A stretch of 34,347 nt of DNA from an uncultured Clostridia bacterium (GTDB lineage: Bacteria; Bacillota; Clostridia; Lachnospirales; CAMZNU01): the NCBI GenBank assembly GCA_947313885.1, contig CAMZNU010000027.1:1-34347 (forward strand). The letters are read 5' to 3'. The translations under genes were made by a program, and so were the position numbers. Shown piece by piece: positions 4,692 through 12,060 of this stretch. Within the stretch, counting starts at the first letter, position 1, and each line of letters begins with the position of its first letter. The notes beneath the pieces are model-generated. The model saw only the letters and a list, made by a program, of their open reading frames with translations, had not been told where the DNA came from and did no database searches.

Positions 4692-5711
4692 TTACATTTC
4701 AATAGCTACGGCATGAGCAATAGACGGTATACTTTGACCTTGTTGTATAGATGTAGAACTTAACAACGCTCCTGTAGGAATAAATAATACTTTTAATATT
4801 TCACCTTTACACATTTTTTTATATATCATTCCTGTAAATGTCACAGCTGAACAAGCGCACCCACTTCCACCACAATGGGTATCTTGTGTTTTTTTATCAA
4901 ATATTTCTATTCCGCAATCTGTGTAAATATCACTTATATCTAATCCATTTTCTAACAAAATATTATTAGTTAGTTGTCGCCCTACATGACCTAAATCACC
5001 TGTAATTACTAAATCATAATAATTAACATTTAATTCAAAATCTGAAAAATGCGTTAATATCGTATCTGCTGCCGCTGGTGCCATAGCTGCCCCCATATTA
5101 TTTGGATCATTTATTCCCATATCTACAATTTTACCTGTTGTTATTTTTTTTATTTTTGGTAAGCCTTTATTTTCATATTTATTATTAGAGCTTATTACGG
5201 CACTACCATCACCTGTAACTGTCCATGATGCTGTTAGTGGTCTTTGGTTTCCAAGTTCTAAAGGTGTTCTAAACTGTCTCTCAGCTGTGCAAAAATGACT
5301 CGATGCACCTACTAATATATTTTCCCCGCCTCCACCATCTAAAATTATACTACCTAATGATAAACTTTCCCCAAAAGTCGAACATGCACCATACACTCCT
5401 AAAAATGGTCTTCCTAAACTTTTTACTCCGTATGTAGTTCCTATGCTTTGATTTAATAAATCTCCCGCTATAACATAGTCAATATCCTCATTTTTCATAC
5501 CAGCTTTTTTTATAGCTAATTTAAAACTCTCCTCTACTAATTTACTTTCAGCTTTTTCCCAACTATTTTCCCCTAATGACATATCTTTTAGTATAACATC
5601 AAAATATTTACTTATAGGTCCATCACCCTCTTTATTTCCAACTATAGATGATGTTGCAACTATATATATTTTATTTTCAAATATTATTGATTGTTTTCCT
5701 ACGTGTTTCAT
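4692..5711 (-). CDS. spoVAD: Stage V sporulation protein AD
   Basis: This is a thiolase-fold protein of the SpoVA channel that binds and moves Ca-dipicolinate across the inner spore membrane. The 339 residues are the usual length. Diagnostic stretches are the N-terminal GKQSIIFENKIYIVATSSIVG, EGDGPISKYFD, and a thiolase-like GACSTFGESL around C110. Later come GDLGHVGRQLT and a glycine/cysteine-rich CGGSGCACSAV. It is the last gene of spoVAA-AB-AC-AD and is followed by a terminator. In Bacillus the operon is transcribed by sigma-G in the forespore; I could not identify such a promoter here. No spoVAE or spoVAF follows, although spoVAE is usually present. Confidence 0.97.
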   Translation of the reverse strand: MKHVGKQSIIFENKIYIVATSSIVGNKEGDGPISKYFDVILKDMSLGENSWEKAESKLVEESFKLAIKKAGMKNEDIDYVIAGDLLNQSIGTTYGVKSLGRPFLGVYGACSTFGESLSLGSIILDGGGGENILVGASSHFCTAERQFRTPLELGNQRPLTASWTVTGDGSAVISSNNKYENKGLPKIKKITTGKIVDMGINDPNNMGAAMAPAAADTILTHFSDFELNVNYYDLVITGDLGHVGRQLTNNILLENGLDISDIYTDCGIEIFDKKTQDTHCGGSGCACSAVTFTGMIYKKMCKGEILKVLFIPTGALLSSTSIQQGQSIPSIAHAVAIEM

Positions 5712-5722
5712 TACTTCACTCC

Positions 5723-6178
5723 TTATAAAATTCCAACTACTAAATAATATATACCTCCTACAATTATAGATGATATTATTCCATATACAATAACAGGTCC
5801 CGCTAAAATAAACATTTTACTTCCTATCCCAACTATTATGCCTTCTTTTTTAAATTCCATCGCCGATGAGGCCACTGCATTAGCAAAACCCGTAATAGGC
5901 ACTATACTTCCCGCACCTGCATATTTGCCCAATTTTTTATACAATCCTATCCCTGTAAATAAAACCCCTAAAAAAATCAATATTATAGTAGTATAACTAC
6001 CAACTACAGTTATATCTGCACCTAATGTTAACAATACATATTCTATTATTTCGCCTATAAGCGATATTGTCCCGCCTACAACGAATGCAAATATACAATC
6101 TTTATATATCTTACTTTTTGGTGATATATCTCTTACCATTTTTTTATATTTTTCTACATTTACATACCCTTCATCCAT
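5723..6178 (-). CDS. spoVAC: Stage V sporulation protein AC
   Basis: This is an inner-spore-membrane protein of the dipicolinate channel; SpoVAC of Bacillus acts as a mechanosensitive channel. The 151 residues hold about four hydrophobic helices. The N-terminus reads YKKMVRDISPKSKIYKDCIFAFVVGG, the SpoVAC pattern of a short cytoplasmic leader containing 'SP' before the first helix. GSIVPITGFANAVASSAMEFKKEG is the conserved central loop. It lies 11 bases upstream of spoVAD in the same operon. SpoVAC and SpoVAE are related, but the leader and gene order favour AC. Confidence 0.93.
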   Translation of the reverse strand: MDEGYVNVEKYKKMVRDISPKSKIYKDCIFAFVVGGTISLIGEIIEYVLLTLGADITVVGSYTTIILIFLGVLFTGIGLYKKLGKYAGAGSIVPITGFANAVASSAMEFKKEGIIVGIGSKMFILAGPVIVYGIISSIIVGGIYYLVVGIL

Positions 6179-6187
6179 TGTTACCTC

Positions 6188-6631
6188 CTACATATTATAA
6201 AATAAACTTTTTGTCACTGTTAATATTGAACCTACCATTTTCCCTAATCCTAATGCTAAAACTACATAACTAAGCCCTATATTCATTTTAAAACGTCTAA
6301 ATATTACAGGTAAAACATCTAATGTTTCCGCTAAAGATATAGCCAAACACCCAACAAAAATACCCGCACTAAACCCAAAGCTTACTACAAATATTTTTGG
6401 CAATGATAGCCTTATATTTGTAAATTCTATTATTGTCCCTAAAATACCGCTCATGACTATTACGTTTTCATAAAATTTTATATGAGATTTAGTTCTGGTT
6501 TTCGTAATGATAGTCGGTATTACACCTATTATTATTATAAATGCAAATACAGCACCCGCTATTACTACGCCTGTAGAAAACATAAAAAAAATAAAAATTA
6601 TATCCATAATCATTTTACTCACCTTCTTCAT
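6188..6631 (-). CDS. spoVAB: Stage V sporulation protein AB
   Basis: This is a small polytopic membrane protein of the SpoVA complex, 147 residues with about four hydrophobic helices. The diagnostic stretch is GFSAGIFVGCLAISLAETL followed by VIFRRF, close to Bacillus SpoVAB. Its start overlaps the end of spoVAA by 17 bases, so the two are translationally coupled. Its precise role in dipicolinate transport is not known in any species I can recall. Confidence 0.92.
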   Translation of the reverse strand: MKKVSKMIMDIIFIFFMFSTGVVIAGAVFAFIIIIGVIPTIITKTRTKSHIKFYENVIVMSGILGTIIEFTNIRLSLPKIFVVSFGFSAGIFVGCLAISLAETLDVLPVIFRRFKMNIGLSYVVLALGLGKMVGSILTVTKSLFYNM

Positions 6632-7229
6632 TACTCAATTTGTTTAATGTTGTTTGTAATACATTTTCTTCATATTGTGTCATTTCTATCTCTATAGGTG
6701 ATGGATCTTTTGTTAACTTCTTATTGCCTACATGATTAAAAAATATAATAATACCAACTCCTATTCCTATAGAATATGGTATACCTATTAACATTGGGCT
6801 TTGTATCGATTCTCCTGTAAATACTTCATATAAATTTGATAATACTGCTACTAATTCTGTTTCCGTATGAAATGATATTATAGCCGTCATACCACCTGCA
6901 AATAGTACTAAACTAACAATCATTACTTTTAATATTTCTACTATGTTATTTTTCACGTTCTTCTCACGCACTATGTGTTCAACTATACACTCATTAACTC
7001 CTAAACTAACTATTTCAATATCTGGAAATTCACATTTTATTTTTTTAACTATTATAAATAAATCAATATAGAAACTTTTTTTTAGGTTGTCTCCTATTTC
7101 GAAAAAAATGATTTCGCCAATGTTTTTTGTTAATTCATTACTAGCTTCAATTTTTGCAATATGTTTTAATTTAATTTTTTTTTTATTATATACCTTTACT
7201 TTGTTTTGAATATATATATATACGAACAA
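6615..7229 (-). CDS. spoVAA: Stage V sporulation protein AA (TTG start)
   Basis: This is the first gene of the spoVA operon. The 204 residues comprise a soluble N-terminal part (KHIAKIEASNELTKNIGEIIFFE, then an alpha/beta domain to ~90) and two hydrophobic segments (about 101-120 and 146-166). The layout and the ending fit SpoVAA, which is membrane-anchored. Translation starts at TTG (7227-7229), set by AAAGGAGG ending 7 nt upstream; no ATG is available nearby. It begins 68 bases after sigE stops, and a small palindrome lies between them (7247-7268). SpoVAA is the most variable SpoVA protein, so this identification leans on gene order. Confidence 0.85.
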   Translation of the reverse strand: MFVYIYIQNKVKVYNKKKIKLKHIAKIEASNELTKNIGEIIFFEIGDNLKKSFYIDLFIIVKKIKCEFPDIEIVSLGVNECIVEHIVREKNVKNNIVEILKVMIVSLVLFAGGMTAIISFHTETELVAVLSNLYEVFTGESIQSPMLIGIPYSIGIGVGIIIFFNHVGNKKLTKDPSPIEIEMTQYEENVLQTTLNKLSNEEGE

Positions 7230-7246
7230 AAAAAGACCTCCTTTAA

Positions 7247-7268
7247 AATAGTATTTTTAAATACTATT
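7247..7268. promoter_or_regulatory. Short palindrome between sigE and spoVAA
   Basis: Two perfect 10-nt arms, AATAGTATTT and AAATACTATT, flank two bases. It lies 4 bases upstream of the spoVAA ribosome site. It lacks a good T-run, so it may be a weak terminator or a protein-binding site. I could not recognise a sigma-G promoter around it. Confidence 0.4.
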
Positions 7269-7297
7269 CCTCAAAAAGTCTATCTTTATCCAATAAT

Positions 7298-8026
7298 CTA
7301 TACCATCTTACTTACTTCTTTTTTTAATCGTATTACTATTCTTTTTTCTAGTCTTGATATATATGATTGTGATATCCCTAACATATCCGCAACTTCCTTT
7401 TGCGTTAGCTCATCTCCACCTCGATTTATTCCATATCTCAGTTCAACTATTCTTTTTTCCCTTGGGTTTAACTTATCTAATGCAATGCCTAATAAATTAC
7501 GTTCAACTTTGCCTTCTACATCCTTGTATATAATATCTTCATCTGTTCCTAAAATATCTGATAATAACAACTCATTACCTTCCCAATCTACATTTAATGG
7601 TTCATCTATTGATACTTCAGTCTTTATTTTAGAGATTTTTCTCAAATACATTAATATCTCATTTTCAATACATCTAGATGCATAAGTTGCAAGTTTTATA
7701 TTTTTATCTGTTTTAAACGTGTTTATAGCTTTTATTAATCCAATATTACCTATTGATATTAAATCTTCTATATTTACCCCAGTATTTTCGAACCTCCTCG
7801 CTATATATACTACCAACCTTAAATTTCTCTCTATTAATATTATTTTTGCTTTTTCTCTCGTACTTTCATCATTCAACCATTCTAATGTTGTAAATTCCTC
7901 TTCTTTAGATAGTGGTTTAGGTAATGCCGGCCCACTACCAACATATAAAACCCTTTTGGGAGTTTTAATAAAACCCTTTTTTATCTTGTTTAACATTTTA
8001 TAATAACTCTTTAATATAAATTTCAA
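7298..8026 (-). CDS. sigE: Sporulation sigma factor E, pro-form
   Basis: This RNA polymerase sigma factor directs early mother-cell transcription during sporulation. The 242 residues align almost end to end with Bacillus SigE. Residues 1-27 are the inhibitory pro-sequence, a basic amphipathic helix. Processing is expected just before Y28 ([10 protein letters not shown]), where Bacillus pro-SigE is cut. Region 2 is very conserved ([21 protein letters not shown] and [14 protein letters not shown]). The region 4 helix-turn-helix [22 protein letters not shown] lies near the C-terminus. It follows the gene for its protease, spoIIGA, by 10 bases. Unlike the usual spoIIGA-sigE-sigG arrangement, the next genes are spoVA and not sigG. 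Confidence 0.98.
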
Positions 8027-8036
8027 AATATACTCC

Positions 8037-8900
8037 TTATATTACATTTCTATTCAATATCCCTTCATAACTCTCTGTTTCACTAAAACATAAATTACTA
8101 ATCCCTATCATAACATTTTCTATTACTTTGTAATTTCCTTTAATTAATATTTCTACTTTATCAGTTTTAAAACATAATATTTTCCCATTATTGTTTCCTA
8201 AACTTGAAAACTCTACTATCCTATAGTTTAATAATTTTTCTTCATTTTCCATCATGTAAATATCATATAGATTACTATTTTGTTCAAATATTTTAATAAT
8301 CTCATCATCCAATAAAGTTTTTATTGCTTTATATTCCACTATTATTATATTTCTTTTAGATATTTCATCTACTAAATTGTTTCCAGAATCTAAAAAACAG
8401 GTCACAATTTTACTTTTACCTTTATACATTATTTTTGTTTTGTAGGCTATCTGCTTATTAATTAAATACTCTACGCTATAAACTAAAAAATACTTTATAA
8501 ATACATATGTACATATTGTGGACGTTACTAATAAAATTAATGTAGACTTACTGATAAAATTACCCATGTCTAAAAAATATACCCCTAATACTAGCCCACC
8601 CACAGCAAAGGATATAATATGTACTAATGCTACGATTTTGAAAGTATCAATTTTATTCTTTGGAGTAAATGCAAGTACTACGCATATTGTTATTATTACT
8701 AACAATACAATGAAATTATTCGATAAAATTATATTATCATATATTATAGATAATATTATTAATATACCACCTAAATTACTACTTAGAAATATACGCATTT
8801 TGCTTATCTCTTTGTTAATTACCTTAGATGTTATTAATAGTATGAATAGTATCATAAAAACATTTAAAAAATATATAACGTCTAAATAAATCGTAGCTAT
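8037..8900 (-). CDS. spoIIGA: Sigma-E-processing peptidase SpoIIGA (apparent non-ATG start)
   Basis: This membrane aspartic protease removes the pro-sequence of SigE after polar septation. The N-terminal half has five or so hydrophobic segments. The C-terminal soluble domain carries the catalytic Asp in [11 protein letters not shown]. The first ATG (8855) would begin at MILFILL, inside membrane helix 1, with no ribosome site. Upstream in the same open frame, codons 8897-8856 encode [14 protein letters not shown], the conserved SpoIIGA N-terminus (Bacillus: KIYLDVIWLLN). No ATG, GTG or TTG occurs between the upstream stop (8934-8936) and that segment. AGGGGGTG (8913-8906) sits 7 nt before ATA (8900) and 4 nt before ATT (8903), so one of these probably initiates. 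I annotate ATA at 8900, giving 287 residues. Function is near certain; the start is inferred. Confidence 0.93.
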
Positions 8901-8994: not shown

Positions 8995-9028
8995 CAAAAA
9001 AACCTAAAAGCTTTTACACCATTAGGTT
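8995..9028 (-). terminator. Terminator after the DAC-domain gene
   Basis: AACCTAA (9001-9007) pairs with TTAGGTT (9022-9028), with additional weak pairing in the loop. On the minus strand it is followed by a T-run. It overlaps the stop codon (9027-9029) and separates this unit from spoIIGA. Confidence 0.75.
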
Positions 9029-10523
9029 ATTTATTGTCTATTACATTTATATACCCATCTTCTGATATAGATATGCATATTGTATCTTTAGAATTGTTAT
9101 ATTGGTACAGCATTGCTGAGTTATATCGTGATCCACGCTCTGGGTTGTTCAATTCAATTTCTTCATTTACTTCTAAAGGAACGGTTCCGTCTAGTATCAC
9201 GCCGATACTATGACAAAAACCCATAGTGTCCACTATCATAGCACCATCTATACTTGTTAATGCACTTATCATATCATTACTTAAATATTTAACATGCCTA
9301 ATCTCGGTAACTCTTCCACCTAATCTTTTTAATTCTTTTTTTATTTTCTCTCTATCCTGTATTACTATTATTGTACCTTTTTTCTGTTTACTCGCCTCGG
9401 ATATTATATTATATAGTACCTCTACTTCAACGTTTGATTTGAACTTTTTTAATAAAATTTCTTCAAATATGCTTTTTTCAATTATTCCTCTATGCCTTTT
9501 AGGCTTTCCATTATCAACATCAAAAAGAATTATTGGGTTTTCTTTTCCATTTTCCTTGTAAATAACTTGCCAGAAGTTCTTTTTCATAAATTCAATTATT
9601 ATATAACTACCTTCTTTACAATTTCTATTTTTAATTTCACCTACTCCATTTATTTCGCCTTCTTTAAAAATTAAACTTAGATCATTTCTTGATATTTCTA
9701 ATAATTTTCTAATGTATTTCGTTTGATATAGCTTTATATTGTTCTGAAATGTTATATAACTATGTATATTTACATCAGCCCCTAAAATTATGCTACCGCC
9801 ACTATCGGAGTTCTCATAACTTAAAGAAGCTACTTCTGAAAAACTGTCTATTAATTCATCTGCTGATCTATTTTCTTTACTAAAAGTTATTATTTTTTTT
9901 TCTAATAAAATACAGCATACATTTTTAAATGCTGCTCCTCTTACATATCCAATGCCATTTCCTTGATTTAATGTGTCTAGATGCACTTTTCTTGATAAAA
10001 ACCTTAAATATTCTATGCATTCAAGAAATATTTCTAATTCGCTATAGATTCTGAATTTTTCACTATAATCCGAAAAATCTAGAATAGTTATTAAAAAGCT
10101 ATTGTTCATTTGATATTTATTTATAATAACCACTATTGGCAATGCACAATCCTCATTATCTTTGATAAATACATCATTTATTTCTTTTTCAATTGTTTTA
10201 GTAATTTTTAAAAGCATATTGTCTAAATCACTCTTATTAGTTATTAATTTAAAATTTTTAATTAAACACTCTTCTAGAATGTGTAACTTTTCATTATTGT
10301 TTGTTGTGATATTGTATCCGTCTATTTTAAATTCTCCATCTCTATTGTCTTCTAGAGTATGACCATCTAAAACTTTAAATTCTGAAACATAATAATCTAC
10401 TTTATAAGTTGATATTTTACATTCTACATCAAAATTATTCTGGAATAAATCATTAGATATCGCTTCTATATAGTCACTTTTATTTTTTAACGCATCTTTT
10501 AAAATTTCATCTTCTCTAAACAT
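9027..10523 (-). CDS. Variant diadenylate-cyclase (DisA_N/DAC) domain protein with N-terminal sensor-like region
   Basis: This 498-residue protein has no membrane segment. The C-terminal ~130 residues form a DisA_N/DAC fold. ASKQKKGTIIVI (378-389) is followed by SIDGAMIVDTMGFCHSIGVILDG (core DGA motif 426-428) and ERGSRYNSA (462-470). Classical c-di-AMP synthases carry DGA plus RHR (…RHRTA); here RHR is replaced by RYN. I recall other DAC proteins with GARYNSA preceded by a 'DACNV'-type sensor domain. The middle region fits that: IRKLLEISRNDLSLIF, GVGEI, and W319 ahead of ILFDVDNGKP. Residues 1-190 are unfamiliar. Activity and product are therefore uncertain. It starts at ATG directly after the HD gene's stop (TAAATG), with its ribosome site AGGAGTG inside that gene. 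A terminator follows. A nucleotide-signalling role is inferred. Confidence 0.75.
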   Translation of the reverse strand: MFREDEILKDALKNKSDYIEAISNDLFQNNFDVECKISTYKVDYYVSEFKVLDGHTLEDNRDGEFKIDGYNITTNNNEKLHILEECLIKNFKLITNKSDLDNMLLKITKTIEKEINDVFIKDNEDCALPIVVIINKYQMNNSFLITILDFSDYSEKFRIYSELEIFLECIEYLRFLSRKVHLDTLNQGNGIGYVRGAAFKNVCCILLEKKIITFSKENRSADELIDSFSEVASLSYENSDSGGSIILGADVNIHSYITFQNNIKLYQTKYIRKLLEISRNDLSLIFKEGEINGVGEIKNRNCKEGSYIIIEFMKKNFWQVIYKENGKENPIILFDVDNGKPKRHRGIIEKSIFEEILLKKFKSNVEVEVLYNIISEASKQKKGTIIVIQDREKIKKELKRLGGRVTEIRHVKYLSNDMISALTSIDGAMIVDTMGFCHSIGVILDGTVPLEVNEEIELNNPERGSRYNSAMLYQYNNSKDTICISISEDGYINVIDNK

Positions 10524-11915
10524 TTACACTCCTATGTCATACTCCCTTAATAAATATAATGATGAGTCGTACATCCCTCTTGTTAATGATCGTAGATCAT
10601 CTATCAACAGTTTGATTTCACCGTCATCACCTATAACTGTTAAACCATCTTCAAATCTTTTTATTTTCTCTTCTTCTTTATTTTTACCATCTATAATTGA
10701 TTCTAAAAATTCTTCTTCTAAAACATGTTTTGTTATATGGCATATTCTCAATTGTGGTAGTTTATTATTATCACTCTTGCAACTATTATATATATCACTT
10801 TTATATAATTTATCATAGGCTTTTTTCTTGCTTGTTACTATGTTTACCTCATCACACTTAACGTGACTTAAATGTGAATACTTTATAAGGCTACTTACGT
10901 AGTATTTTATTTCATCGCTAGTATTTCCATCTTTTAATTTATAGACTAATTCCCAAAACTTACTATCCGTAAAGGAATTGTACTCATCGCACTTAGCTAG
11001 TTTTATAAATTCAATTTCATTGTAAAACAACCCCTCTTTAATTCCATAATCCATTATTACTTTTGACATATATGATAAAATCGATACATGCCTGTTATAC
11101 ATGACTTGGCTATACATAAAAAATCTTCCTATTAAAAATTGATCGGCTGATGGAATCCCCTTATTTTTAATGCATATAATCTTTCTTCCTTTGTATTCCT
11201 TTAAGGTTAAATTTTCAAGCAATAAATCTATTCCAAAAAAACCATATGTTGTACCGGCAAATGTAGAATCTCTCATAATATAGTCAATCCTATCTGCATC
11301 TAACTCTGAATGTAATAGTTGAATTTTATCTGACAATTCATTTTTATAACTAAAATCACCTGTAATTATTGCACATATATCTTCTATTTTTAAAAAATCA
11401 CAATTAGACAATTTTATTACATCTTTAATTTCTTTACTGTTCATTATTACTAGTTTACCTATTTCTTCATGATGCATTTTTATACTTTTGTTTTTTACAC
11501 TTTTATTGTTCTCTAAACTGTCTATTTCCTCAACTACTTTTCTCTTTTGCTCGTTTTTATAGTTATTTTTATCTAATTCTATTTTATTCAAATAAACAGA
11601 CTCCCCACAATGTGAAAGAGGGTAGTGTCCTATATCATGTAATAATCCTGCTAATCGTACAAGTTGCCTTTCTTCATCACTATATTTTAATTTTATAGCC
11701 ATTTTGTCTGCAATATGCATCACACCTAAAGAATGGTTATAGCGTGTATGTTCTGCTCCTGGAAATACCCAATTTGCTAATGCAAGTTGTTTTATATCTC
11801 GCAATCGTTTAAATATAGGTAATTCACATATTTCCATTTCTACCTTTGTTAGCCCTATAAATCCGTGTACGTTATCTATTACTTTTTCCACAAAATCAAT
11901 CGTATATTTCCCCAT
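10524..11915 (-). CDS. HD-domain phosphohydrolase (SAMHD1/dGTPase-like, COG1078 type)
   Basis: This is a 463-residue soluble protein. The HD-superfamily metal ligands are visible: H61 in AEHTRYNHSLGV, H93-D94 in LAGLLHDIGHYPLSH, and the distal Asp in LDADRIDYIMRDS (about 206-211). The spacing is that of SAMHD1-like and COG1078 enzymes, which hydrolyse dNTPs or other nucleotides. The insert at 110-150 is lysine-rich. The start ATG at 11915 has a close GGGGGAG site. Its stop codon touches the ATG of the DAC-domain gene, so the two are almost certainly co-translated. That suggests it acts on the same nucleotide pool as the DAC domain, either hydrolysing its product or tuning its substrate. The fold is clear but the substrate is unknown. 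Confidence 0.85.
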   Translation of the reverse strand: MGKYTIDFVEKVIDNVHGFIGLTKVEMEICELPIFKRLRDIKQLALANWVFPGAEHTRYNHSLGVMHIADKMAIKLKYSDEERQLVRLAGLLHDIGHYPLSHCGESVYLNKIELDKNNYKNEQKRKVVEEIDSLENNKSVKNKSIKMHHEEIGKLVIMNSKEIKDVIKLSNCDFLKIEDICAIITGDFSYKNELSDKIQLLHSELDADRIDYIMRDSTFAGTTYGFFGIDLLLENLTLKEYKGRKIICIKNKGIPSADQFLIGRFFMYSQVMYNRHVSILSYMSKVIMDYGIKEGLFYNEIEFIKLAKCDEYNSFTDSKFWELVYKLKDGNTSDEIKYYVSSLIKYSHLSHVKCDEVNIVTSKKKAYDKLYKSDIYNSCKSDNNKLPQLRICHITKHVLEEEFLESIIDGKNKEEEKIKRFEDGLTVIGDDGEIKLLIDDLRSLTRGMYDSSLYLLREYDIGV

Positions 11916-12060
11916 ACTCCCCCTGTCTTTGTTTTATATATAAAAGTTTCACAATAAAACAAAATTCAATTTATATAAAATTAATTTTAATGCTATATAT
12001 TATAATTTTTAAACCCCATAAAAAAAATATAAATTTACTGTATGTTAATTATCATAATTT

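Follow-up and report, generated by a model that had tools for sequence, protein, structure and literature searches.

What could be the function of an HD phosphohydrolase gene whose stop codon touches the start codon of a gene for a DAC-fold protein? Such a pair lies in the window (the whole stretch of 34,347 nucleotides analysed here), which comes from a Clostridia bacterium described as small and spore-forming. An earlier note saw in it two head-to-tail fused genes and proposed an undescribed signalling or defence switch, in which one protein makes or senses a nucleotide and the other removes it or its precursor.

Layout and surroundings of the gene pair

The two genes are present at 9027-11915, as the earlier note had them, on the minus strand. 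They are not fused; HD and DAC are adjacent, separate open reading frames. The features of the locus are as follows:

11916..11935, minus strand: HD ribosome-binding site (GGGGGAG T ATG), read from the sequence
10524..11915, minus strand: HD phosphohydrolase gene, 463 aa, SAMHD1/COG1078-type
10518..10535, minus strand: gene junction AGGAG-TGTAA-ATG, read from the sequence
9027..10523, minus strand: DACNH-DAC gene, 498 aa
8993..9024 (about), minus strand: hairpin and T-run 3' of the DAC gene, likely an intrinsic terminator by fold statistics

The junction reads 5'-GGGAGTATGACATAGGAGTGTAAATG. The TAA of the HD gene abuts the ATG of the DAC gene (TAAATG), and the DAC ribosome site, AGGAG, lies inside the HD gene, 5 nt upstream; both details had been described correctly. 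The terminator proposed to follow the pair was also recovered. Just past the DAC stop, a hairpin (AACCUAA...UUAGGUU) is followed by a U-run, and the MFE is -13.3 kcal/mol, whereas shuffled sequences average -6.5 (z -2.9; 4 of 200 shuffles were as stable). A simple scan for short-loop terminators missed this hairpin because its loop is too long. There is good evidence that HD and DAC share one transcript and that their translation is coupled.

Touching or overlapping genes on the same strand are ordinary in this genome, and the window has three further overlapping pairs (for example 12061-13164/13139-14677). Thus, the HD-DAC junction points to an operon but is unremarkable by itself. The GC content of the pair does not differ from that of its flanks (0.27-0.28), so GC gives no signature of lateral insertion. 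In the window, the DAC gene has CsaB-like, HD, and SpoIIGA genes as neighbours; the flanks of the pair comprise a CsaB-like pyruvyl transferase, cell-surface polysaccharide genes, and spoIIGA-sigma factor-spoVA genes, and this indicates a housekeeping and sporulation neighbourhood, not a defence island.

The sporulation genes are arranged in an uncommon order. At 4692-8855 of the window, spoIIGA and a sigma factor gene are followed directly by spoVAA, AB, AC, and AD, which departs from the usual spoIIA-sigF-spoVA arrangement. The gene preceding spoIIGA is ftsZ-like in five of the 13 relatives' loci, which are short stretches.

The HD hydrolase and its coupled partners

Pfam finds an HD domain (PF01966, 1.2e-11) in the 463-aa protein, and its best solved relatives are 2hek, EF1143 (2o6i), and SAMHD1; dGTPase models give weak matches. 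All of the metal ligands (H61, H93, D94, and D206 or D208, a choice that depends on the alignment) are present, as is the catalytic pair H102/E105, and the catalytic columns, including the HE pair, are invariant among nine relatives (alignment A4). The spacing HD-x7-H-x2-E is the same as that of the active-site residues H117, D118, H126, and E129 of CloA, the dNTPase of the Clover system (PMC12265719). The fact that these residues are kept, with CloA-like spacing, suggests that the window HD protein is most likely an active dNTP triphosphohydrolase, an activity predicted from its relatives EF1143 and SAMHD1. An AlphaFold model made from the single sequence reached a pLDDT of only 31 and was kept out of the argument. 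A genome search found this protein to be the sole one of its kind in the genome, and a search of IMG/VR found no relatives.

Does the hydrolase act on a messenger made by its partner? HD domains of other families, such as those of PgpH-type phosphodiesterases, hydrolyse c-di-AMP. By analogy, the DAC protein would make a (di)nucleotide messenger and the co-translated HD protein would degrade it. However, the HD protein matches the dNTP triphosphohydrolase branch (SAMHD1, EF1143) and carries the HE pair for dNTP hydrolysis, Pfam found no PgpH features in it, and the other DACNH-DAC genes whose loci were read lack a linked hydrolase of the HD kind. Such a division of labour is therefore quite unlikely.

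Which genes accompany the relatives of this HD protein? The closest relative (39% over the full length) is that of genome G009, whose gene shares 14 nt with a gene for a DUF815 AAA ATPase (L120:1101-3753); this pair could be a related module. In G010, the HD gene precedes a PRTase-CE (PF24390) gene with a gap of 20 nt (L129:6796-9557). A second set of HD genes has tightly linked downstream genes encoding proteins of 170-190 aa that are homologous to one another and presumably YwgA-like, judging by their position and size; one of these proteins touches the SocA/Panacea model at 0.0025. In a tree, the window HD protein groups with that of G009 (99/97) and lies outside the YwgA-coupled set. Within the order and the class, no DAC partner was found beside those HD relatives whose flanks were inspected. 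Since the partners differ (DAC, AAA/DUF815, and PRTase-CE), the HD lineage of the window seems to be coupled now to one gene and now to another, a pattern that would suit an effector whose regulators can be exchanged.

The DACNH-DAC family and its neighbourhoods

The second gene had been taken to encode a DAC with a locally variant motif. Its family is already catalogued in Pfam and NCBIfam: the protein matches DACNH (PF21750; 7e-14, 52 bits) and DAC (PF02457; 1e-10, 41.7 bits), with cut-offs of 27. Its parts are:

Residues 1-215: N-terminal region
Residues 224-320: DACNH (Pfam)
Residues 375-497: DAC (Pfam)
Residues 425-428: IDGA motif, from alignments
Residues 437-446: CHSIGVILDG motif, from alignments
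Residues 463-470: RGSRYNSA motif, from alignments
Residues 487-489: SED motif, from alignments

No confident fold or family match was found for the N-terminal 215 aa, and the DACNG region of the protein at L014 fails to align with them. The AlphaFold model covering residues 220-498 is confident over most of its length, and Foldseek matches it to DisA, CdaM, and DacA (E 3e-4 to 1e-2, probability 1.00). The best family model is NCBIfam NF053872 (DS2_3_antiphage), at 5e-54 and with a score of 183.5 bits that is far under the curated cut-off of 630. By BLASTP, the protein matches the E. coli DS-2 DAC at 2e-25 over residues 223-495; the locus of the latter is annotated as anti-phage phospholipase/NTase/protein.

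In alignments of nine and of 33 sequences, IDG[AT]...C....GVILDG...RG[AS]R[YF]NS marks invariant or near-invariant columns, to which the window protein conforms. Among the 96 DACNH-DAC loci that were read, [AS]R[YF]NS occurs in 93, nearly always behind an intact DG[A/T/S]. GSRYNSA in place of GTRHR is, by these alignments, a hallmark of the whole family, so that the window protein does not stand by itself as a variant. Elsewhere, the genome encodes a canonical CdaA-type DAC as well, which serves housekeeping c-di-AMP; the GSRYN of the window protein aligns with the GTRHR of this enzyme.

Is the variant site functional? Of the canonical diadenylate cyclase motifs, DGA is present and RHR is absent, being replaced by RYN, so that one histidine and one arginine of the ATP site are missing. 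This loss would suit a protein that is a nucleotide-binding sensor and no cyclase, which would hold the HD protein by contact, much like an antitoxin holds its toxin, without a diffusible signal. However, the DGA, the first arginine, and the SE[D/E] motif are retained, and the replacement residues are themselves conserved, which speaks for an altered yet functional site. Moreover, in the DS-2 system either of two mutations in predicted catalytic residues of the DAC abolished defence (PMC13092281), and it follows that the RYN subfamily is probably active. Control by contact alone is therefore unlikely.

If the pair were a recurring module, HD genes should be found beside other DACNH-DAC genes, and the earlier note had called for such a tabulation. 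A GTDB genome scan with the single window protein as query gave no matches, while one with an alignment-based profile gave 286 relatives, the best 80 of which were read. Together with six plasmid loci, five viral loci, and five further loci from Bacillota/Clostridia, these make up the 96 readable loci. An HMM of 12 HD proteins, which detected its positive controls at 1e-55 or better, found an HD relative in none of the 96 (1.29 Mb). A phmmer search for HD proteins in an earlier set of the loci and a clustering of neighbours in 87 DAC-bearing loci also found none. Of 391 genomes of the class, four carry a DACNH-DAC at E <= 1e-15, the source genome included, and the other three are without HD neighbours. 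The tabulation thus yielded no recurring HD gene on the one side and, beside the inspected HD relatives, no DAC on the other. A pairing confined to this genome, which the earlier note had named as counting against its idea, is what these searches gave.

With 286 relatives in GTDB genomes, DACNH-DAC genes are common; in the loci read, most stand alone or next to CBASS genes, with CBASS-type NTase genes adjoining in six loci. In Hymenobacter, a recurring neighbour precedes them in 19 loci (L043, L044, and L045 among them), and its product, where sampled, matches TonB_C. None were found in phage records, and only five in IMG/VR.

A number of loci have features of their own. At L135:7046-9757 and L096:6158-8755, of which one belongs to a Clostridia chromosome and the other to a viral contig, the DACNH-DAC proteins measure 903 and 865 aa and carry C-terminal TPR repeats. 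DAC relatives occur in 18 of 5,426 E. coli genomes; in one isolate, a DS-2-like phospholipase/NTase/DAC set stands immediately before a DncV CBASS operon (L160:2069-9746). A similar phospholipase-NTase-DAC set is carried by a conjugative Citrobacter plasmid with IncC and IncP replicons (L013:4373-8047).

Are the two genes neighbours by chance? The DAC gene could be a stand-alone defence or sensor gene behind an HD dNTPase gene, with a common transcript and separate mechanisms. Its relatives are mostly solitary, so it may act alone; genes that touch are nothing unusual in the window, and the empty tabulation from both sides fits such a loose association. On the other hand, HD and DAC are translationally coupled and have a terminator in common, the HD and DACNH-DAC families are both accessory and defence-linked, and the closest HD relatives are likewise found in coupled pairs. 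We regard a chance pairing as a serious, if doubtful, explanation.

A candidate mechanism and its relation to known systems

The reading we favour, tentatively and with slightly less than even confidence, is that the pair is a translationally coupled accessory module of two genes that would work like Clover, most likely in phage defence. The HD protein would be the effector, a dNTP triphosphohydrolase that depletes the dNTP pool once released. The DACNH-DAC protein would be the regulator, which might produce a nucleotide signal, or at least bind it by way of its DAC fold; the signal would either restrain the hydrolase in healthy cells or activate it in infected cells. DACNH and the N-terminal region would serve as the sensor. 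A more specific proposal is a Clover-like defence switch in which a DAC-fold enzyme, by non-canonical RYN chemistry, makes the nucleotide signal that gates a SAMHD1-type dNTPase; it is possible but somewhat doubtful.

Of the switch in the earlier note, an operon that joins an intact HD hydrolase to a cyclase-like protein has held up, while recurrence has not. A defence role is plausible by analogy because the window DAC falls in one family with the DAC of DS-2, which depends on its predicted catalytic residues to defend against phage, and because the analogous dNTPase and signal-synthase pair of Clover is proven. Against a Clover-like function, the pairing was found in a single genome and housekeeping and sporulation genes surround it. 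In addition, the HD protein is no more than a distant relative of the CloA-type dGTPases, CloB is an unrelated Pol-beta NTase, and the DS2_3 score lies far under the curated cut-off.

What would such a module mean? HD-DAC would join two known defence parts in a new way. If the proposal is true, the principle of Clover, a nucleotide signal gating a dNTPase, extends to a signal synthase of unrelated origin; DAC enzymes, which have until now been linked with c-di-AMP housekeeping and with CBASS, have also been recruited to control dNTP depletion; and an HD effector swaps its regulators (DAC, AAA, and PRTase-CE). The RYN-type DAC family poses a more general question than the HD-DAC pairing: hundreds of genomes carry a member, DS-2 needs its own for defence, and we found no product or activity described in the literature for any DACNH-DAC. 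A DAC wired straight to one hydrolase would offer a simple two-protein setting for finding the product and its effect.

How does the pair compare with known systems? The HD protein is homologous to the YwfO/COG1078 hydrolases, which are often translationally coupled to a downstream gene; the partner in the window is a DAC, whereas the YwgA-coupled HDs have a protein of 170-190 aa. The window DAC has the DAC fold and the DGA and SE[D/E] motifs of DisA, CdaA/DacA, and CdaM, but it has GSRYN for GTRHR and is preceded by DACNH.

DS-2, a DefensePredictor system that acts against phage in E. coli, consists of a phospholipase, a cGAS-like CD-NTase, and a DAC (PMC13092281). Its DAC and that of the window share the DACNH + DAC architecture of one family and the RG[AS]RYNS motif. 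In contrast to DS-2, the window gene adjoins an HD enzyme and neither a phospholipase nor a CD-NTase, and its NF053872 score is 183 against the cut-off of 630. By sequence, the window DAC belongs to a DS2_3-like family; the locus itself is not DS-2.

The closest parallel in design is Clover, a proven pair of a dNTPase, CloA, and a nucleotidyltransferase, CloB (PMC12265719). CloA is a dGTPase that is activated by dTTP and restrained by p3diT from CloB, and loss of CloB activity leads to toxicity (PMC12265719). Like Clover, the window pair sets a predicted dNTP hydrolase with an HD domain beside an enzyme of the nucleotide-signal type in a module of two genes, and its HD protein has the H...HD...H..E...D active-site layout of CloA. 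However, CloB is a Pol-beta NTase that makes p3diT, whereas the partner in the window is a DAC-fold DACNH-DAC; the window HD protein belongs to the SAMHD1/COG1078 branch and is only distant kin to the dGTPase branch of CloA. If the model holds, the window pair works like Clover without being a member of it.
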